A stretch of DNA of 36,948 nucleotides, taken from IMG/VR virus record IMGVR_UViG_3300031539_000136, positions 1 through 36,948 of that record, one strand, 5' to 3'. Source of the DNA: a virus. Below are positions 17,510-36,948 of the stretch, one piece after another; the stretch's first letter is position 1, and every line of letters begins with the position of its first letter. A model generated the notes under the pieces. It was not told where the DNA came from. It worked only from the letters and a program-made list of their open reading frames with translations, and searched no databases. The position numbers and the translations under genes are program-made.

Positions 17510-18292
17510 TTATACCTCACTCTTTTTTGATTTGCGACGTTTGCGCTTTGGCTTCGGTGCTTTTGGCTCAATAATAGTTTCTGGCTTGTCTTCCACAGCC
17601 ACAACATCTTCAATGGTGGCAACTTCCAATTTCGTACTACTGTCTTTTATCGTCTTCTTCCAGATTGCCAACCCGCAACTGTCGCCGTCCACCAGGTATA
17701 TTTCCGGTTCAATGCCTGCCTGCTTAATGCCTGCCACAACTGCACCCCTAAATTTGGGATGCACAGCGTCATGTGAGATAATTACACCGCCAAAGACAAG
17801 TAAATCAATAGCCAGATCATAAATATTCTTTGTCATCGTATCGGTGTGTTCGGTATCCTTGAATACCAATTCATATCTATTTTTGTCATTTTTCAGGTAA
17901 TCAATAGCGTCAGATGTTACGAGCTTTACCCCCTTGTTCTTGGGAATAAATTTTCCAACTGGTTGATTACTACCTTGTATTGTCTTCTCATTATCAATAG
18001 AAATAACACGACCAGTGGGTGTGGGTGCAGCCATATTACCATCGGCAATTTGTAATGCCATAGCACCCCACCTTGTGCCAATATCTAACGACAGTATAGG
18101 GTTTAATGCACGAGTAACAGCATAAAGAATGCGCTTTTCGCTTTCACTACCCGTTCCCGACGGCCAATTGTTCCCGTCCGGGCGCGTTGCCGCGTGAGGT
18201 GCTTCTTTTGCGTACTGATTTAGCTTTTCTGGTGATAGGTTTAACTGCTTTGCTATTGCTGTCAATACTTGGTTTAATGTTCCTTTGTGCAT
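17510..18292 (-). CDS. SAM-dependent methyltransferase-like protein (260 aa)
   Basis: A class I Rossmann methyltransferase core is visible: the glycine motif LDIGTRWG at 69-76, the acidic strand end VISID at 96-100, and GGVIISHDAV further on, as in Methyltransf_24-type enzymes. The start has a strong AAAGGA site. The first 48 residues are encoded within the 3' end of the upstream glycosyltransferase in another frame. The C-terminus is a Lys/Arg-rich tail (KPKRKRRKSKKSEV). It lies between two glycosyltransferases, so methylation of a transferred sugar is a reasonable inference. Substrate and activity are unproven. Confidence 0.65.
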   Translation of the reverse strand: MHKGTLNQVLTAIAKQLNLSPEKLNQYAKEAPHAATRPDGNNWPSGTGSESEKRILYAVTRALNPILSLDIGTRWGAMALQIADGNMAAPTPTGRVISIDNEKTIQGSNQPVGKFIPKNKGVKLVTSDAIDYLKNDKNRYELVFKDTEHTDTMTKNIYDLAIDLLVFGGVIISHDAVHPKFRGAVVAGIKQAGIEPEIYLVDGDSCGLAIWKKTIKDSSTKLEVATIEDVVAVEDKPETIIEPKAPKPKRKRRKSKKSEV

Positions 18293-19262
18293 TGTATATC
18301 CTTTGTGCTATTGAATTCAATTTCGCATGATTTGGATTGATGTCAGTTGCGACAACGGGCAACGGCGCTTCTGCTGGTATTTCTAGCACCCCGGCCGCTT
18401 GCAGCATATCAGCAAACGTGAGGGGTTTAGTCACCCGTTGTCTAACCACTTTTTTTGGTTCTATCACTGTCGTTGGTTCTGGCAACACATAATATAAATC
18501 TGGTCGAATAACAACGTCTTTTCTATCCATCCATACCTTTCGCGTCTTTGCTGCTCTACCATATCGGCGTCCGGTTATCTGCCCAACTACATTACGATTG
18601 CCTTCCCATAATGGCATAACCAAAATATCACCCGGTAATCGCTTACCAATTGGCACTAGATTATTGGTATTCACTTTCCCACCACAACATCCCACTCTAT
18701 ACCTCCGACTAAACTCAGCTCTGATCTTTGAGAATAACCCGTTAGACCGTGCTGTACTTGACCGCTTGCCATCGTTTGTGTAATGTACTAATGGCTTTTG
18801 CACCTTAGTTCCACAATAGGCGTATTCATCGAATTTAAGAAATAATTCAGTATCTTCCATAGCCTGTAAGTCTTCATTGAAACCACCTGCTAATGTTATC
18901 ATACTGGTATGGATTAAACAGGTTACTAAATGCCATGCCGTGTCCCAGAATGCGCCGTCTGGTGTTTCTTTTTCTTCCGTTCCCTGATACCAATTAGTGT
19001 ATACATACCTATCAGGTGTTGACGCTTTCAAACATTCATACACGAAATCAGGCTCAAGATAATCATCAGCATCTAAGAACACAACGAATTTAGTTTTAAC
19101 TTGCTTTAATAACAGGTTACGAATATAGCCCGGCCCGCGTTGTTCGGTGTCTACCATATGCAGGTGTCTGCATGGTATTGTCTGCTTATGAACACTATCA
19201 GCACATCTAACAAATACGCCCTCGTGCCAGGGTGCTATTGGTGTAATAATTGTTACTTGCAT
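18147..19262 (-). CDS. Glycosyltransferase family 2 protein (371 aa)
   Basis: The N-terminal 200 residues are a GT-A fold: VTIITPIAPW at 3-12 and the DxD-type metal motif FLDADDYLEPDF at 62-73. AMEDTELFLKF in the middle fits the catalytic-base region of GT2 enzymes. After about residue 210 there is a poorly conserved region with an Arg/Gly patch and a basic tail. The last 48 codons overlap the downstream methyltransferase-like gene in another frame. The start has AAAGGA. It is probably part of a sugar-decorating cassette with the next two genes. Confidence 0.8.
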   Translation of the reverse strand: MQVTIITPIAPWHEGVFVRCADSVHKQTIPCRHLHMVDTEQRGPGYIRNLLLKQVKTKFVVFLDADDYLEPDFVYECLKASTPDRYVYTNWYQGTEEKETPDGAFWDTAWHLVTCLIHTSMITLAGGFNEDLQAMEDTELFLKFDEYAYCGTKVQKPLVHYTNDGKRSSTARSNGLFSKIRAEFSRRYRVGCCGGKVNTNNLVPIGKRLPGDILVMPLWEGNRNVVGQITGRRYGRAAKTRKVWMDRKDVVIRPDLYYVLPEPTTVIEPKKVVRQRVTKPLTFADMLQAAGVLEIPAEAPLPVVATDINPNHAKLNSIAQRIYNAQRNIKPSIDSNSKAVKPITRKAKSVRKRSTSRGNAPGREQLAVGNG

Positions 19263-25977: not shown

Positions 25978-26868
25978 TCATTCGTCACTCGCTTTCACCT
26001 TCGCTGGCGTTAATCTCTTGCAATGCTTTTCGTCTATTATTTTAGGGACTGCTCTATTCCAGTCAGTATAATGATGTAACCTTGGGTTAACATCATGATA
26101 TGTCAATCGTACAATGATACATGATGGTTGTTGCATAACGGTATAAAATGATTTTATATATGTACCATATTTAAGATACATATCAGTCAATCCGCCAGGT
26201 TGCGCTTGTGTTCTTTTCTGCTCAATAGATATATTAAATATTGTTAAAAACAAACCACCACGATTACCTAATGACATATATGTGTTAACATCATCATTCA
26301 TCCTCCCAATGAATTTGAATGGACGTTTTACGCTACAGAAAAAGGAGTTCATAGCCTTCCTTTTCATTTTCAGTGTTGTTATAAACGGATTACTGCCACC
26401 GCCTACGAAGTCGCCACCCTGTGAAAATGCGATAGACAAAGCATCTATTGATTTATAAAACTTAAGCATAAAACAAAATATATCATCTAATTGTGTGCAT
26501 GGTATATATTTATAAATAAGATTTTCATCCAATCTGCCTCTAAAATTTGTATAGTCATCATCAAGTTGGATAAAATAATCTATTCCTAAATCACGAGCAA
26601 TATCAAAACAGGCATTACGTGCATACAAAACTGTATTATGTTCACTGAAATTATCACAAGTATCTGTTCTATCTGCAACCGCTTTTTTATCAAAGACAAT
26701 CACCTTATCGCCAAAGTTCTTTTTATACTCATCTATGGTACTATCTTCATTATCGACAATGATATAAATAGCACCCGTATAACCGCCTTTACGCAATGTC
26801 CTGTATGTTATGACATTGTTCGGTCTACCATGCGTTAGAATGAACACAGCGAAGTTATTAGCTATCAT
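25978..26868 (-). CDS. GT-A glycosyltransferase, TET-associated (TAGT)-like (296 aa)
   Basis: I use the ATG at 26866-26868 with GGGGA upstream, rather than a TTG two codons earlier. The N-terminus reads FAVFILTHGRPNNVITYRTL (7-26). YIIVDNEDSTIDEY (35-48), LYARNACFDIARDLG (81-95) and the metal-binding LDDDY (102-106) follow. This pattern is that of the phage glycosyltransferases named TAGT, thought to add sugars to modified bases such as 5-hydroxymethyl-pyrimidines in phage DNA. It overlaps the ParB-like gene by 11 bases and precedes terminase, a context I recall for that class. Activity on DNA is inferred; no TET/JBP or hydroxymethylase gene is visible in this window. Confidence 0.65.
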   Translation of the reverse strand: MIANNFAVFILTHGRPNNVITYRTLRKGGYTGAIYIIVDNEDSTIDEYKKNFGDKVIVFDKKAVADRTDTCDNFSEHNTVLYARNACFDIARDLGIDYFIQLDDDYTNFRGRLDENLIYKYIPCTQLDDIFCFMLKFYKSIDALSIAFSQGGDFVGGGSNPFITTLKMKRKAMNSFFCSVKRPFKFIGRMNDDVNTYMSLGNRGGLFLTIFNISIEQKRTQAQPGGLTDMYLKYGTYIKSFYTVMQQPSCIIVRLTYHDVNPRLHHYTDWNRAVPKIIDEKHCKRLTPAKVKASDE

Positions 26869-27691
26869 ATTCAATCCCCGCTAATCCTGCTATACTCTCT
26901 GTCAATTGCACGAAACCAAGTTCTATTGCTTTATTGAAATCTATAATCACTAACGCGCTGTTTTCCATTAGGTTCTGTGTTCTCTCATCGGAGTGTGCAT
27001 AATATTCTGCAATCCTACCAAAATCTAAAACAGTATGCCGTTGCGCTGCTATAATCAAAAATTGCTTTTCATCTTCCGGTAAATCTGATGATTGTATTTC
27101 CTCTATTAACTGCCGTGTTCTGCTATTATTGAATAAGCTGCTTATTGATGGCTTATCACCTGTTATTTCATAAGTAGGCGCTTCTATCTTACGTGAGTAA
27201 GTATCATCTTCCTTGTTATTATCCCCCGCCAAATCTGCCAACAGCTCATCCAACTCATCACCAGTAAACCCGGTTGCACTTATATCAATCTCATCGCTAT
27301 TGGCGATTTCCTGCAATAAGTCTGCCAGCGCCACTTCATCCCAACCGCCATCAATTGTCAGCTTGTTACTAGCAGCTAAATACGCCAACGCATGGGCATC
27401 GCTTTTACTATTGTATCCAACATTAGTTGGCACATACCAGTCGTTACCATCATCCCTAATACCATTAGGTGCATTCATTTTCTGCTTACGCATCATATAT
27501 AGAGCTTGTGTTCTGCCATGCCCGGCCAAATACAACCCGGTTCTATCATCAATCGTGCCTAATTCCACATATCCGTGTTCCTGATAAGACTCAATAATTC
27601 CACCAACATTGTGACCTTTAGCATTTTTAGGATGCAATCTAGTCATCAATTCGCTTAATGCAAAATATTCTATCTTACGCTCGTCTGTCAT
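26858..27691 (-). CDS. ParB-like protein with phage-type C-terminal domain (277 aa)
   Basis: The N-terminal 130 residues are a ParB/Srx-like domain: LHPKNAKGHN near 19-28, and GHGRTQAL at 57-64 in place of the usual GxxR box. An acidic linker follows. The C-terminal 110 residues carry EDEKQFLIIAAQRHTVLDF and LMENSALVIIDFNKAIELG, a combination found in phage ParB-like proteins encoded next to DNA-modification genes. It is likely to bind DNA or nucleotide (CTP in true ParB). Chromosome segregation is unlikely here. It probably works with the adjacent glycosyltransferase or in packaging. Confidence 0.7.
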   Translation of the reverse strand: MTDERKIEYFALSELMTRLHPKNAKGHNVGGIIESYQEHGYVELGTIDDRTGLYLAGHGRTQALYMMRKQKMNAPNGIRDDGNDWYVPTNVGYNSKSDAHALAYLAASNKLTIDGGWDEVALADLLQEIANSDEIDISATGFTGDELDELLADLAGDNNKEDDTYSRKIEAPTYEITGDKPSISSLFNNSRTRQLIEEIQSSDLPEDEKQFLIIAAQRHTVLDFGRIAEYYAHSDERTQNLMENSALVIIDFNKAIELGFVQLTESIAGLAGIEYDS

Positions 27692-28212: not shown

Positions 28213-28635
28213 CTATTTGACACCAATAAACACCGTCATATCGGTGTCTTTGTTCCAGATATTACCGTCTGGCAATATTGCACATTCAAGATTTGCGCCA
28301 TACAATTCCGCGCCATACAATTCCGCGCCATACAATTCTGAATAACGCAAGTCAGTACCACTTAAATCAGCACCACTCAATTTAGCACCACTCAATTTAG
28401 CATCGCTCAAGTCAGCACCACTCAATTTAGCACCACTCAGGTCAGCACAACTCAAATCAGCACAACTCAAGTAAGCTTCACGCAAGCTGGCATAATACAA
28501 GACGGCATAACGTAAGTCTGCATAAAACAATCTAGCACCACTCAAATTAGCACCACTCAGATTTACCCTTCCGGGCGAATTGCCGACGATCACACCCAAC
28601 TGCGCTTGTGTTATTTCGTTTCCATCAATATTCAT
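28213..28635 (-). CDS. Pentapeptide-repeat protein (140 aa)
   Basis: Residues about 25-118 consist of five-residue repeats of the A(D/N)LSG type (VNLSGANLSGARLFYADLRY ... SGAKLSGADLSGTDLRYSEL). These should fold as a right-handed quadrilateral beta helix of about four turns. A short N-terminal cap and a C-terminal segment (DKDTDMTVFIGVK-like) flank it. Some pentapeptide proteins mimic DNA and protect or inhibit gyrase, but this one is short and no target can be inferred. The ribosome binding site is AGGAG. The encoding DNA shows 15-bp repeats. Confidence 0.9.
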   Translation of the reverse strand: MNIDGNEITQAQLGVIVGNSPGRVNLSGANLSGARLFYADLRYAVLYYASLREAYLSCADLSCADLSGAKLSGADLSDAKLSGAKLSGADLSGTDLRYSELYGAELYGAELYGANLECAILPDGNIWNKDTDMTVFIGVK

Positions 28636-28827: not shown

Positions 28828-28851
28828 TCCCTCATTGCTAATCGATTGATT
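28828..28851 (-). repeat. 24-base direct repeat, copy 1 (before the 36-aa peptide)
   Basis: Identical over 24 bases to 29717-29740. On the minus strand it contains the palindrome AATCGATT followed by GCAATGAGGGA, which supplies the ribosome binding site of the next gene. This copy includes the stop codon of the ArdC-like gene. It may be a shared translational operator or simply a duplicated junction. Confidence 0.85.
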
Positions 28852-29707
28852 GAATCGCCGGATTGCCTAAAATATAATCTCTTGCCGTTGCTGCCTGTGA
28901 TGCTGCCTTTACTAAAATGCTTCTATCATCTTTAATCGCTGTCAGCCATCCCGCAACGTATGCCGCGTGGTTATCAATATCAACATCCAGTCCGCACTCA
29001 CCACATAACATCACTGAAATAAGTTCTGCAACAAGTTCTTCCTTGCCATATGACTTACTGTAAAATGTATTTTTACCTGTCACCCCTTGCCGTGCTAATC
29101 GTGACACATGCCCGGTGCTATGCCCTAACTCATGGAATAACGTTCCATAATATGCTTCCATAGAATTAAAATATTCAGGCATTACAACTATATCCTTTTT
29201 AGGAGCATAGTACGCCATTGTTCCCTTACGTTGTATCGGTGGGCAGTCTTTGTAACTTGACACTACATTTTCGGCAGCTTCTAATGGTGTAAACTCTACC
29301 GTTTTAATTGATAATGGCGGCAACTCAATCCCGGTTGTCTGTGCTGCAATATTGAATACTGGTCGTGTGCCACATTTTACATATAGCAATTTGCCGCGTT
29401 CCTGTCCTGCTTCTGGCTCTGCTCGTTTCTCTGACACATACATAACCATTACTGATTGACTGCCTTTAATCACCTTGCCGCCAGCATCTTTAATTTGCTT
29501 AAATCCTGCAAAACGATGATCTGCCCATCCACGTAGCGCCATATCGAATTGTAATGAAAATGAATTATATCCCGAATACCTCTTACCAGTAAAATAATTA
29601 ATCGGTTGGCTTCCGCAAAACCATTCTGCCTTCCAGGGTACAATACCATTTTCTAACTGTTCAATAATTGCGGCTGTTACTTTTTCGTATACTTCATTTT
29701 TCTTCAT
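28838..29707 (-). CDS. ArdC-type antirestriction protein (289 aa)
   Basis: The N-terminal 125 residues match the ArdC ssDNA-binding domain: VTAAIIEQLENGIVPWKAEW at 10-29, YFTGKRYSGYNSF at 38-50 and FKQIKDAGGKVIKGS at 69-83. The C-terminal part is a zincin metallopeptidase-like domain with HELGHSTGH at 192-200 and a downstream glutamate in KEELVAELIS at 222-231. ArdC proteins shield incoming DNA from host restriction. The family length is usually near 300. It fits an early gene, and the leader carries copy 2 of a 24-base repeat. Confidence 0.85.
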   Translation of the reverse strand: MKKNEVYEKVTAAIIEQLENGIVPWKAEWFCGSQPINYFTGKRYSGYNSFSLQFDMALRGWADHRFAGFKQIKDAGGKVIKGSQSVMVMYVSEKRAEPEAGQERGKLLYVKCGTRPVFNIAAQTTGIELPPLSIKTVEFTPLEAAENVVSSYKDCPPIQRKGTMAYYAPKKDIVVMPEYFNSMEAYYGTLFHELGHSTGHVSRLARQGVTGKNTFYSKSYGKEELVAELISVMLCGECGLDVDIDNHAAYVAGWLTAIKDDRSILVKAASQAATARDYILGNPAIQSID

Positions 29708-33393: not shown

Positions 33394-34401
33394 CTAAAAT
33401 ACCACGTCTTCATCATCGCCGAATGGGATTTCCTGACCTGCCACCGTTACTGGTTGTTCAGGATGTGCTTGTGCATCCACCAACTTTGTTAGTAATGGAT
33501 AGCATTTCGTTGTGTCATCCTGTGGCACAAACATGAAATATGTACCGAAATATCTATTGTTGTCTTCCGGTTTGTCTCCCTGCTTTGCCTCAAACATTGG
33601 CGATAAAATAGAACTTGTAAACTCATCGACTCTTTCAAGCCGATTTTGCTTTATCTTTATGTCATGTGACGGATACTTTGATTCCCCGCCATTATACGAC
33701 GAATGTACCTCAATGACCGGATTACCGTCACGGTCAAAAATGCGCGACATTTTACATATATCAATAATGACTGTTTTACCAGCATAATTATCTATATATT
33801 CCTGTTTCTTTTTGTAGTCATAACCACCTATATATACACTATCACCACTTTGCGAAACTGTCGGCGGCGTGCTTGTATTCACAGGCGCTTGTGCTGTCGC
33901 CTGCGGTTTGTCATCACGCGGAAAGTATTCATCTAATACGCTTTGTGGCTTTGGTGCTGGTTGTTGTGCATTACCATTGGACAAAGAAACTAACTTACTA
34001 TCCAAGACTATAGACATGGTATTGACATGTTCATATACAGCATCAATAAAGTTCTGCGCTGATGTCCCCTCAGTAAACACATTAACTTGTATGAAGCGCA
34101 TCCCATGTTCTAATAAAACTGGTATGCCAGGTGCTTTTACCCATATCGAAACACGCGCCTCATTATGCGTGCAGGGAAGGTAATCACCACTTTTATCCTC
34201 CAACTCATCAGCAGCCACATCACCATTGGCAACGCTGTTCAGCGCACTGATAAAATGGCGCAATGTCTTTTTAATCATACCCTCGGTTGCACCTGCCCGT
34301 GTTCCCACATAAAACAGAACGTGATATGGTTTATTATCACAAATCACGGTTGTCTTATAAGTGTCCCCTACCGTTACAATGTTGAATTCTTCACTCATCA
34401 T
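33394..34401 (-). CDS. Protein with SSB-like acidic C-terminal tip (335 aa), unknown fold
   Basis: I start at ATG 34399-34401 (MMSEEFNIVTVGDTYKTTVI), where GAAGGG is well spaced; a start eight codons upstream lacks a site. Residues 1-150 are beta-rich. A Pro/Gln/Thr-rich linker spans about 150-190, followed by an alpha/beta domain. The end reads IPFGDDEDVVF, acidic with a terminal Phe, as in single-stranded DNA binding proteins whose tips recruit replication partners. Position near replication-type genes agrees. A phage SSB or recombination accessory is a hypothesis, since no OB-fold motif is certain. Confidence 0.6.
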   Translation of the reverse strand: MMSEEFNIVTVGDTYKTTVICDNKPYHVLFYVGTRAGATEGMIKKTLRHFISALNSVANGDVAADELEDKSGDYLPCTHNEARVSIWVKAPGIPVLLEHGMRFIQVNVFTEGTSAQNFIDAVYEHVNTMSIVLDSKLVSLSNGNAQQPAPKPQSVLDEYFPRDDKPQATAQAPVNTSTPPTVSQSGDSVYIGGYDYKKKQEYIDNYAGKTVIIDICKMSRIFDRDGNPVIEVHSSYNGGESKYPSHDIKIKQNRLERVDEFTSSILSPMFEAKQGDKPEDNNRYFGTYFMFVPQDDTTKCYPLLTKLVDAQAHPEQPVTVAGQEIPFGDDEDVVF

Positions 34402-34621
34402 TACTATCCCTTCTGCTACCGCCATAACGCGGTATCTTCAGCAATTCATCTAAATCACTACGCAAAATCAATCGTTCTCCAATGCCAACAAACCAATGCG
34501 CTGTTAAGTTCCCGCTTCTAATATAATATTCAATTAGCGACTTACTGCGACCTATACTCTTTGCAGCATGTGGAACGTTTATGTAATCTGTTACTAATCC
34601 CACGTTTTTATCTTCTTCCAT
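34391..34621 (-). CDS. Small HTH (excisionase/MerR-like) DNA-binding protein (76 aa)
   Basis: Residues about 14-62 read INVPHAAKSIGRSKSLIEYY then IRSGNLTAHWFVGIGERLIL and RSDLDELL. This is the winged HTH layout of excisionase-family small regulators. It has AGGTGA before the ATG and tandem -10 boxes upstream, and its stop overlaps the next gene. It probably regulates transcription of the early operon. No integrase is present, so a true excisionase role is unlikely. Confidence 0.7.
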   Translation of the reverse strand: MEEDKNVGLVTDYINVPHAAKSIGRSKSLIEYYIRSGNLTAHWFVGIGERLILRSDLDELLKIPRYGGSRRDSNDE

Positions 34622-34653
34622 ATACTCACCTCATTTCAACTAAACATAACACC

Positions 34654-34679
34654 ATTATACACCGGGCTGTACCATTATA
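34654..34679 (-). promoter_or_regulatory. Two direct-repeat -10 boxes upstream of the HTH gene
   Basis: GTATAATGGT occurs twice on the minus strand with starts 20 bases apart (TATAAT at 34674-34679 and 34654-34659). The second is preceded by TG (TGTATAAT) and lies 33 bases before the ATG. The duplication may be tandem promoters or a repeated regulator site. Confidence 0.5.
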
Positions 34680-34704
34680 CAATAAGTAAAACATTAGAAT
34701 ATTT

Positions 34705-34899
34705 TTATTCCTCTTCAAACATCAGCGTATCAGCATCTTCGCTGGCGACTAGTGACTGCTCGGTGTCGCGGCGTTTCAGGCGTTCTATACAGAAGCAGCG
34801 ATAGCATTGCAATAGCCCGGTCTTGGTGTTTCTGCATATCGAACTGTCTCCATAGATCAAATACTCTTCTGCTCCACAAATCTCACATTTAATTCTCAT
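34705..34899 (-). CDS. Zinc-ribbon-like small protein (64 aa)
   Basis: The start is ATG 34897-34899 with AAAGGA at good distance; a GTG three codons earlier would leave almost no spacing. MRIKCEICGAEEYLIYGDSS then LLQCYRCFCIERLKRR gives CxxC...CxxCxC, a probable zinc-binding site, and the C-terminus is acidic (LMFEEE). It may bind nucleic acid or a host protein. The function is unknown. Confidence 0.65.
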   Translation of the reverse strand: MRIKCEICGAEEYLIYGDSSICRNTKTGLLQCYRCFCIERLKRRDTEQSLVASEDADTLMFEEE

Positions 34900-34917
34900 T
34901 GTATTCACTTCCTTTAT

Positions 34918-34957
34918 TTGCTATAATTTGACTACAAGCAACCAATTTGGAGTTGCT
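34918..34957 (-). promoter_or_regulatory. Mutually exclusive hairpins in the leader of the zinc-ribbon gene
   Basis: On the minus strand AGCAAC (34952-34957) pairs with GTTGCT (34937-34942) with a 9-base loop. The same GTTGCT can instead pair with AGCAA at 34918-34922, directly before the AAAGGA ribosome binding site. The two folds exclude each other, a layout seen in leader switches. Short stems make this tentative. Confidence 0.35.
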
Positions 34958-34993
34958 AAACAATCAAGGCTACGTGTATAAACTGTGATTGTG

Positions 34994-35023
34994 AAACGAC
35001 GCGCTATAGAGGCCGCGTCGTTT
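34994..35023. terminator. Perfect 10-bp inverted repeat at the end of the 70-aa gene
   Basis: AAACGACGCG / CGCGTCGTTT enclose a 10-base loop that contains the stop of the 70-aa gene. Read on the plus strand the stem runs into TTTTAGTTTTATC, a terminator shape. Read on the minus strand only TTT then CACAATC follows, so sense termination would be weak. Confidence 0.55.
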
Positions 35024-35216
35024 TAGTTTTATCTTTCCTACGTTTTAATTCTGCCGACAATGAATCAATAATACGCTGCTCATGTTCACGTCTGGCGATT
35101 GCTTCATTAAGTGTAATTCTAGCTTTATATTCAACAGCACCTAACTTGTTAATTGTTGCCGTCCTCATTTCAATTTCAAACGCTATGATTTCATTACTCT
35201 TGTTTTCTATGTCCAT
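35004..35216 (-). CDS. Hypothetical helical protein (70 aa)
   Basis: The protein is almost entirely helical and charged (MDIENKSNEIIAFEIEMRTA ... SAELKRRKDKTKTTRPL), with a basic C-terminus. It has ribosome binding site GGAAGGA and starts two bases after the ParB-like stop, so it is cotranscribed. No family is recognised. Confidence 0.6.
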   Translation of the reverse strand: MDIENKSNEIIAFEIEMRTATINKLGAVEYKARITLNEAIARREHEQRIIDSLSAELKRRKDKTKTTRPL

Positions 35217-35218
35217 TG

Positions 35219-36097
35219 TTATTCCTTCCTGGTGCTATGTGATTGCAGCCATTCATTGGTAATTCCCACAATATCAGCTTCTTCTTCAATCCATCCTGCC
35301 ATAGTAGCTCCAATATGTTGTTCGCTTTTATATAGCACCTTGCTTAGTAGGTGATGGCCATATTCAAGTAACTCTGCTTCGGTGTACATGCGCTCACCGT
35401 CGCTGTTTGTCTGGTATGCTTTCGATTTGTTGCCACTCATATTTTTGTCTCCGATATTATAGATAGAATGCTTAAAACCACTTGTATTGCCTGCTATCAA
35501 TTCATCCAGTGCCTTTTCTGCAAGCTCTTTGTTTTTTCTGTGAACAGCGCCAAATTGCATAACGTCGCGTTTCCATATCTTTAATTCGCCACGCAGGATG
35601 CTATCTTTCAATTCGTCGCTATGATCTGCGATAGTATCAATTGCCTGCTTATACTTAGCAGCATTCACAACCGTTTGTTCACTGACATTGTTATTTTCTG
35701 CCAGACGTTCCCGTGTATTCTGTGTACAATAATTGTACACAGATTTAGACCCGTGACCATTTGTCTTTTCTAGCTCATATCTTGCCCCGATAATGTACGT
35801 GCGGTATTCATCTGTGAGGTTACGCCTTCCAAGTTGGTTGTCGTATATCCATTTTTTAACTTCTGTTCTGTCCTCAAATTCATATTCTACGGTGTCGTAT
35901 TCAATCCCGTGCTTCATGCAAATAGAATGGCGGTAACGTCCGTCAACTATAACGAACTCGCTCTGCCCTGGGTCTAGCCACACCACCAACGCATCCCGAC
36001 ATCCTTCTGCAACGATGCTAGCTTCTAATAGGCTGTATTCATCATGTGCCAACGGAGCTATTAATGTTTTGAATTCACTGTCTATCTTAATTTCCAT
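35219..36097 (-). CDS. ParB N-terminal-domain protein (292 aa)
   Basis: Residues about 10-90 form a ParB-like domain. IVDGRYRHSIC (50-60) carries the DGxxR box, preceded by EGCRDALVVW (31-40), and VKKWIYDNQLGRRNLTDEYR (80-99) follows as in phage and plasmid relatives. A helix-turn-helix-like part follows (RERLAENNNVSEQTVVNAAK), then a region with Lys/Glu-rich helices. Such stand-alone ParB-like proteins in phages regulate transcription or replication rather than partition. It is the first gene behind the pseudoknotted leader. Confidence 0.8.
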   Translation of the reverse strand: MEIKIDSEFKTLIAPLAHDEYSLLEASIVAEGCRDALVVWLDPGQSEFVIVDGRYRHSICMKHGIEYDTVEYEFEDRTEVKKWIYDNQLGRRNLTDEYRTYIIGARYELEKTNGHGSKSVYNYCTQNTRERLAENNNVSEQTVVNAAKYKQAIDTIADHSDELKDSILRGELKIWKRDVMQFGAVHRKNKELAEKALDELIAGNTSGFKHSIYNIGDKNMSGNKSKAYQTNSDGERMYTEAELLEYGHHLLSKVLYKSEQHIGATMAGWIEEEADIVGITNEWLQSHSTRKE

Positions 36098-36124
36098 GTA
36101 TCACCTTCACTATGCTATATAAAT

Positions 36125-36223
36125 AAAAACCGCCATGCCGAAAGTTCTGTGTTGAACCGAACAACTAAGGAAAGTTATTGCCACAGAACCGCCGGAATAG
36201 CGGCTTTTTAATTGTTCGGTTCA
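36125..36223 (-). ncRNA. Structured RNA with pseudoknot topology upstream of the ParB-like gene
   Basis: In transcription order the elements are as follows. B1 (GAACCGAACAA, 36212-36222) begins at the predicted transcription start. A helix of 16 positions (36193-36208 with 36125-36140, one mismatch, two G-U pairs) then leads through a 3x3 internal loop to a perfect 8-bp helix, GUUCUGUG/CACAGAAC (36182-36189, 36144-36151). The 30-base apical loop contains B2 (UUGUUCGGUUC, 36154-36164), the exact complement of B1, and the pairing extends to 12 bp including 36223 and 36153. The RNA ends in UUUUUAUUU. It could be a roughly 100-base small RNA or an attenuator 28 bases before the ATG. I know no matching family. 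Confidence 0.6.
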
Positions 36224-36228
36224 CTGCC

Positions 36229-36237
36229 ATTATACCA
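36229..36237 (-). promoter_or_regulatory. Extended -10 promoter for the structured RNA / ParB-like operon
   Basis: The minus strand reads TGGTATAAT. A -35-like TTGTTA lies at 36253-36258 (18-base spacing). The predicted start at about 36222 coincides with the first base of the B1 segment of the downstream structured RNA. Confidence 0.7.
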
Positions 36238-36260
36238 CAATTCACATCACAATAACAATG

Positions 36261-36470
36261 CTATTTATCATCGCCAGACATTGACAATAGCTGTTCTGGA
36301 GATATACAGAATTCCTGTGTGTAGGCAACTGATATTTCATCAATATGATCCTCAAGTGCTGCTATGTAATCATACAGACGTTTATTCTCGCGTCGTAAAT
36401 CTTCGTTTTCAAGTTCCAATGCCACGTAATCGCCGGGCGATTTATCCACGAACATGCTTAGTTGTTTCAT
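36261..36470 (-). CDS. Small coiled-coil protein (69 aa)
   Basis: The protein reads MKQLSMFVDKSPGDYVALEL, then ENEDLRRENKRLYDYIAALE, a strong leucine-zipper-like coiled coil at about 18-50, with an acidic end (SMSGDDK). Ribosome binding site AAGGA lies about 14 bases upstream, a little far. It may dimerise with a partner. The function is unknown. Confidence 0.6.
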   Translation of the reverse strand: MKQLSMFVDKSPGDYVALELENEDLRRENKRLYDYIAALEDHIDEISVAYTQEFCISPEQLLSMSGDDK

Positions 36471-36510
36471 CGTTGTTATCGCTATCCTTCAAAGTTACAA
36501 TTTGACCACT

Positions 36511-36726
36511 TCATAACTGTTCCATCCTCTCCCAATCATTACAAGTGCTATCGTTACAGTTTACGTTATATAATCCATTGTGCTGCATTTTGAAATTAAC
36601 ATCAGAATGCAATTTGCAGTGCCAGCTACGCTTGTGTTTTGGTATATCGTAACCTGTATTTAATACCACATAATTACAATTAATACATCGCCTATCGTGA
36701 ATATCCCTGAATTCAAAACCAATCAT
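36511..36726 (-). CDS. Cys/His-rich small protein (71 aa)
   Basis: The protein reads MIGFEFRDIHDRRCINCNYV, with further Cys/His residues in SWHCKLHSD and NCNDSTCNDW. The pattern CxxC...WxC...CxxxxCxxW suggests zinc binding. It starts directly after the stop of the helicase-like fragment with GAGGTG as ribosome binding site, so it is cotranscribed with replication genes. No family is recognised. Confidence 0.6.
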   Translation of the reverse strand: MIGFEFRDIHDRRCINCNYVVLNTGYDIPKHKRSWHCKLHSDVNFKMQHNGLYNVNCNDSTCNDWERMEQL

Positions 36727-36727
36727 T

Positions 36728-36948
36728 CTACACCTCTTCCCATGCTAAGTGCTTAAAGTTTGTTTTCATTTTTATCTGCCCTTCCTGACCCTCACTATTT
36801 TTACAGACGTTAGCCAACCCAGTATTTGTTTTGGTTAATTGACCATCAATTTCATCATATGTAATATGCAACGCTATGACTAAGTTAGCTGTATCCGGGC
36901 GTACCCACATACTATCATATTCATTGAGTGGTTTATTATTTCGCTTAC
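36728..36948 (-). CDS. Probable C-terminal end of a DnaB-like (SF4) helicase, 5' part beyond the window
   Basis: The frame is open to the right edge, with no start needed inside: KRNNKPLNEYDSMWVRPDTA then NLVIALHITYDEIDG. NTGLANVCKNSEGQEGQIKM follows, and the end is FKHLAWEEV. The succession of an Arg-containing strand (ADLVI-type), then a K-N-x-x-G-x-x-G loop and a final strand resembles the RecA-core end of DnaB-type replicative helicases (KNRxGxxG). Walker motifs would lie outside the window, so this stays tentative. Confidence 0.5.
   Translation of the reverse strand, partial: KRNNKPLNEYDSMWVRPDTANLVIALHITYDEIDGQLTKTNTGLANVCKNSEGQEGQIKMKTNFKHLAWEEV

Follow-up and report, generated by a model that had tools for sequence, protein, structure and literature searches.

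Attenuators of the trp type and those of plasmid rep genes are built from a promoter-proximal leader with two competing folds and a U-run, with the regulated gene directly downstream, while crcB and preQ1-type riboswitches are small pseudoknotted 5' leaders. Early phage operons may also begin with an RNA that affects termination, as with the put sites of HK022 and the nut sites of lambda, and the c4 antisense RNA of phages P1 and P7 (RF01695) is a phage leader RNA with complementary segments. The crcB (fluoride) leaders are coupled to terminators (PMC2864571), and TIGR-Tas systems can be operonic with a ParB-like gene, tasParB (PMC12045711). The locus described here has features in common with each of these, and we propose that it is a leader RNA in which the 5' end of the transcript can pair with the apical loop of its own terminator.

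The window, by which we mean the whole 36,948-nt stretch of DNA analyzed, is an entire IMG/VR record (IMGVR_UViG_3300031539_000136), possibly a fragment, with nearly all of its genes on the minus strand. Close kin of this phage, as judged by its ParB-like protein, terminase, capsid, portal and a 343-aa protein, were absent or very distant in the collections searched. A gap of 163 nt separates a 69-aa gene (ending at 36261) from a 292-aa ParB-like gene (35219–36097, minus strand), which is the first gene behind the leader. The PHROG matches of this protein are of unknown function, and its identity to ParB-like phage proteins was mostly 25–38%, with about 51% over the N-terminus for the protein of locus L077. 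Read on the minus strand, the gap holds a promoter, a segment a, a hairpin arm b, a loop containing segment a', the second arm b', a U-rich tract, AAGGTG and the ATG. The promoter (36229–36258) is sigma70-like, with a -35 element TTGTTA at 36258–36253, an 18-nt spacer and TGn before the -10 element TATAAT at 36234–36229; a promoter scan gave it 10 of 12 matches with the TG in place, which bears out the extended -10 promoter recognized in the initial annotation of this DNA. The bases 3' of the -10 element run directly into segment a, and the predicted transcript start falls near 36222–36223. A putative Shine–Dalgarno sequence of the downstream gene, AAGGTG, is found at 36102–36107, and the terminator lies 28 nt upstream of the ParB-like start codon. 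The scan listed no promoter between the terminator and the ATG, so that expression of the ParB-like gene must traverse the hairpin.

Segment a, the first approximately 16 nt of the predicted transcript (UGAACCGAACAAUUAA, 36208–36223, minus strand), is complementary to segment a' (UUAGUUGUUCGGUUCA, 36153–36168, minus strand). An exact 12-bp complement between 36212–36223 and 36153–36164 had been pointed out before, and it grew in our analysis to 16 contiguous pairs on the minus-strand RNA, 15 of them Watson–Crick and one U–G. Folding identified segments b (36182–36208, minus strand) and b' (36125–36151, minus strand, with the 3' terminus GGCGGUUUUU) as the 5' and 3' arms of a terminator hairpin, P2, with a' lying one base off the 3' arm and with the remainder of the apical loop (36169–36181, minus strand) pairing internally with part of a' once P2 forms. 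Described earlier as a 24-pair hairpin, P2 was here found to have 25 pairs around the same 30-nt loop, with a minimum free energy (MFE) of -38.9 kcal/mol (z = -5.7) that was equalled by none of 200 shuffles. The U-rich tract UUUUUAUUUAUAU (36117–36129, minus strand) follows, its first U residues pairing with A in P2. The hairpin has the GC-rich stem and subsequent U-run of an intrinsic terminator, and its loop exceeds the length allowed by the pattern used in our terminator scan. On the plus strand, the position of the U–G pair in a:a' becomes a C·A mismatch and the element reached an MFE of only -25.8 kcal/mol; because the plus strand folds worse, the G–U pairs favor a minus-strand RNA, agreeing with the structured minus-strand transcript that had been proposed from the promoter. 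The joint score for the order a, b, a', b' and T-run was 81.2 in the window, which was matched by 1 of 4000 dinucleotide shuffles and was the second-highest value in a 1.03-Mb set of ParB-containing loci plus the window, scanned on both strands, and the earlier estimate that such an arrangement is unlikely to occur by chance therefore held.

It had been suggested that the RNA forms either a pseudoknot or a switch between two folds. The two alternative folds were recovered, and the full pseudoknot was not: a abuts b with zero linker, so that a complete structure of 16 bp and 25 bp is sterically implausible on geometric grounds, and the two helices would be alternatives or would coexist only in part. 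When nascent chains of the window RNA were folded, those with 3' ends from 36152 to 36132 adopted the a:a' fold at -28.8 kcal/mol and longer ones the b:b' terminator at -35.5 to -38.9 kcal/mol, these values being MFE predictions that ignore kinetics and pseudoknots. Much the same was seen for the leader of locus L365 (-28.8, then -38.1 kcal/mol), and the MFE switch from a:a' to b:b' was likewise found in L317, L221, L335 and L077. With the terminator fold about 10 kcal/mol better than the a:a' fold, termination should be favored at equilibrium in the window.

We consider it somewhat probable, at roughly 55%, that the window leader is a cis-acting transcription attenuator heading an early phage operon; an attenuator of the ParB-like operon had been among the options listed in the initial annotation, and it agrees with what we regard as the best explanation, the regulatory effect being one that we infer. 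Polymerase would start at the promoter and transcribe a, b and the loop, and then a'. As a' exits the enzyme, the 5' end would pair with it at once, giving an antiterminator-like fold. Segment b' would emerge about 25–30 nt later, whereupon b:b' could displace a:a' at the U-rich tract, and the amount of transcription into the ParB-like gene would depend on which helix wins, a contest that polymerase speed or an RNA- or polymerase-binding factor might bias. The structure and position of the leader are well supported; the start site, termination, the direction of the effect and any trigger are what we infer. Pairing of a transcript's 5' end with its terminator loop would be an unusual trick, and it may provide a handle on early gene timing in uncultured phages as well as a naturally compact template for RNA switches.

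ParB-like loci of relatives were retrieved from IMG/VR with protein profiles, and many of them had the same order of elements immediately 5' of the ParB-like start codon. At a detector score of at least 55, 36 of 112 upstream regions were positive, some of these loci being near-duplicates, compared with 0 of 336 shuffles. A scan of the loci at the same threshold gave 30 matches ending no more than 30 nt from a ParB-like start, and 99 further matches, many by chance, in the remaining about 2 Mb of strand. The distance from hairpin end to start codon was about 6–28 nt across the leaders. Dozens of other phages thus share the design, with pairing sequences that differ yet always match. No relative had an RNA that could be aligned in sequence with that of the window, similarity searches of phage records at the DNA level returned chance matches only, and viral contigs contained no match to an exact pattern built from a and a' of the window. 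The idea that such a leader precedes every ParB-like gene was rejected, as many of these genes sit inside operons with no gap and with the element absent, and in named phages they usually follow closely on another gene. A leader peptide was also rejected, no small ORF being conserved across the leaders and the main frame being inconsistently open through them; in the window, an in-frame TGA was seen by eye two codons 5' of the ATG, and a 19-codon GTG frame at the transcript start had no counterpart in the other leaders.

The leaders that we call class I came from phages with TAnnTTTG promoters, which we take to be of the Bacteroidota type. Their RNA of approximately 100 nt consists of a 5' hairpin, P1, with a in its loop, an A-rich linker and the terminator P2, the apical loop of which is usually 2 + 8 nt, with the 8 nt exactly matching a and lying flush with b'. 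In 15 sequences this kissing helix was 97.5% paired, with double changes in five of its eight pairs, and covariation over the whole structure was 0.593, compared with 0.191 ± 0.019 after shuffling and at most 0.144 when slid. For P1 and P2 together, on 28 matches to our covariance model R1, the value was 0.861, compared with 0.254, in an alignment that was itself fitted to R1. Looking for homologues with compensatory changes upstream of ParB-like genes, a check put forward in the initial annotation, hence gave a positive answer, the covariation in class I being overwhelming. Model R1 had 76 matches in 97 sources; it matched nowhere in a further 435 kb of ParB-containing loci, nor in the window at E ≤ 1. 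Among 397 genomes belonging to the same family as a Flavobacteriaceae MAG just 3 matched, one of them convincingly, which indicates that the element is mostly viral. Two R1 matches, L300 and L301, had no detectable kissing pair and are probably not members.

Several class I phages carried a second copy about 1.7 kb downstream, followed, where the gene was readable, by a DUF6291 or similar primosome-like gene and then a helicase-like gene. Every genome with two readable copies had kissing sequences that differed between them, exemplified by the pairs GTCTTCAC/GTGAAGAC and CGTCTGAC/GTCAGACG of L132, and a private kissing pair for each copy, in different operons, favors pairing within one RNA and action in cis. 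An anti-host RNA, as once proposed, gained no support here, since pairing sequences that are private to each copy and freely diverging leave no conserved host target. In these Bacteroidota-type relatives the contact is mostly a compact 8-bp kissing loop able to coexist with the terminator hairpin, and the early helix in class I would then tether the terminator rather than compete with it. The window has the class I order a, b, a', b' and U-run directly upstream of a ParB-like gene, and was detected without a P1 hairpin presenting a; given that R1 misses the window, we draw the probable link between the two from architecture, position and a related downstream gene.

Ten leaders were grouped by architecture and position as class II, these being the window, L365, L077, L221, L317, L023, L335, L204, L090 and L046, which cannot be aligned with each other for covariation; the nine or so besides the window are best viewed as candidates. 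In this class a lies near the predicted transcript start, a' adjoins b' and the terminator is near the ParB-like start, with an inner loop hairpin in most members. A sigma70-like promoter was recognized by eye only in the window, L365, L077, L221, L317, L023 and L335. In shuffle tests run leader by leader, the score was exceeded no more than once, except for L023 (5 of 1500 shuffles), which is a weaker member. The nearest analogue of the window was L365, having TATAAT, a 10-bp a:a' helix, an inner hairpin, an 18-pair stem, a U-run and the start codon. The stem of L077 contains GAA/GGA, resembling the tandem G·A internal loop of class I. Considering both classes, we lean towards the view that they represent a widespread and previously unrecognized class of phage leader. 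The 5' end of the nascent RNA would pair with the terminator loop, in a code private to each copy, and would gate early operons of ParB-like and replication genes. Since the phages concerned differ in promoter type, the class would probably extend over more than one bacterial phylum.

Leaders with terminator and antiterminator folds are already known; this family is absent from Rfam and from the papers searched. With Rfam 15 no match exceeded the gathering threshold, c4 and crcB included, and weak matches to microRNA families were discarded as chance. The literature on structured-RNA discovery that we searched, which takes in only a minority of subscription journals and preprints, mentioned no such motif. 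Compared with the trp-type and rep attenuators, with which they share the promoter-proximal leader, rival folds, U-run and adjacent gene, the present leaders differ in that the antiterminator is made of the 5' end and the apical loop of the terminator, sharing no terminator arm, and in having neither a conserved leader peptide nor a known ligand. The likeness to crcB and preQ1 leaders is that of a small pseudoknotted 5' leader with a terminator, but the phage leaders have no conserved aptamer nucleotides or Rfam match, and their pairing segments vary freely. Like put and nut they head early operons, whereas their terminator is built into the leader itself and no put- or nut-like sequence was recognized. 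In contrast to c4, the pairing occurs within one short RNA and is aimed at its own terminator loop, and it was not detected by Rfam. The TIGR-Tas systems are similar in their ParB-like neighbor and short variable segments of 8–12 nt, but the two spacers of a TIGR do not covary, while a and a' must. No Nop-domain Tas gene was found in the window record, which may be incomplete, using a search that detected its controls, and positions 34000–36948 held no tandem dual-spacer array or tandem RNA-unit repeats; without array and Nop gene, TIGR-Tas was rejected. A search of the window for ToxN-family toxins gave no match, as was also the case for the control genomes, and the tandem RNA-unit repeats of a ToxIN-like type III toxin–antitoxin system were lacking.

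A kissing contact maintained in the completed transcript would be expected to give the loop geometry seen in class I, which is also compatible with a stable small RNA or with an RNA bound by protein. On that account, which we consider unlikely, if the likeliest of the rivals, the approximately 100-nt molecule would act when completed, for instance in complex with a phage protein, perhaps the ParB-like protein, with the 5'-end/loop pairing closing and protecting the RNA and the downstream message arising by read-through. The compact, conserved kissing geometry of class I and the conserved tandem G·A internal loop of UGAA/GGAU type in its P2 (as in L132, L114 and L115) point in this direction, as do the strong terminators and an RNA spanning promoter to U-run; the internal loop is absent from the window RNA, where the mismatches of P2 are 1×1. 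Against it, the terminator ends as close to the start codon as in an attenuator, the two copies within a genome have unlike pairing sequences, and the element is absent where the ParB-like gene lies within an operon.

Less plausible still, and in our opinion improbable, is a leader that acts on polymerase or recruits an antitermination factor in the manner of lambda nut or HK022 put, with the kissing fold as the signal. The position at the extreme 5' end of transcripts of early replication-type operons would suit such a role, and class I has some conserved single-stranded sequences, ACATTATA after a and AAAGAAGTTATTA in the linker, that could be read in this sense. These sequences are however missing in the window and the rest of the class II RNAs, no gene for a dedicated factor was identified, and the terminator is found within the fold rather than 3' of it. 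That P2 is simply a strong terminator serving the upstream gene, with complementarity arising by chance, seems very unlikely; the end of that gene just 5' of the promoter and the bidirectional-looking, A/U-rich stem would agree with it, but not the rarity of the joint score among shuffles, nor the many phages sharing the architecture with different, always matching sequences. An operator or replication origin acting as DNA, as inverted repeats near a ParB-like gene and the replication genes near the relatives might suggest, is hardly credible when G–U pairs of the minus strand complete both helices, the plus strand folds much worse, the class I changes are compensatory at the level of RNA pairing and the pairing segments hold no conserved binding-site sequence.

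Some additional features were noted. A 22-nt direct repeat (77% identical) in the window, at 36100–36121 and 36246–36267, covers the ParB-like ribosome-binding region and the upstream part of the promoter, and it could be an operator or due to chance. Among the relatives, L279 (1462–2613) and L075 (1998–2990) encode a ParB-like N-terminal domain fused to differing C-terminal domains (MT-A70 methyltransferase and DUF4326), and both genes retain the same leader type. A possible mirror design was seen upstream of the ParB-like start in L015, L012, L074 and L014, loci that were excluded from the leader set; here the terminator loop matches the downstream Shine–Dalgarno region, as for TCTCCTCTG and CAGAGGAGA in L015. 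Elsewhere in the window, a TET-associated glycosyltransferase gene (25978–26874; PF20691, E 6e-39) overlaps a second ParB-like gene (26858–27691; phrog_620), and a further glycosyltransferase match was found at 18147–19262, the two glycosyltransferase genes hinting at possible DNA base hypermodification. The window also encodes an antirestriction-type protein with an ArdC-like N-terminal domain and a zincin metallopeptidase domain (28838–29707; PF08401 and PF18818) and a pentapeptide-repeat protein (28213–28635; PF00805, E 1e-38).
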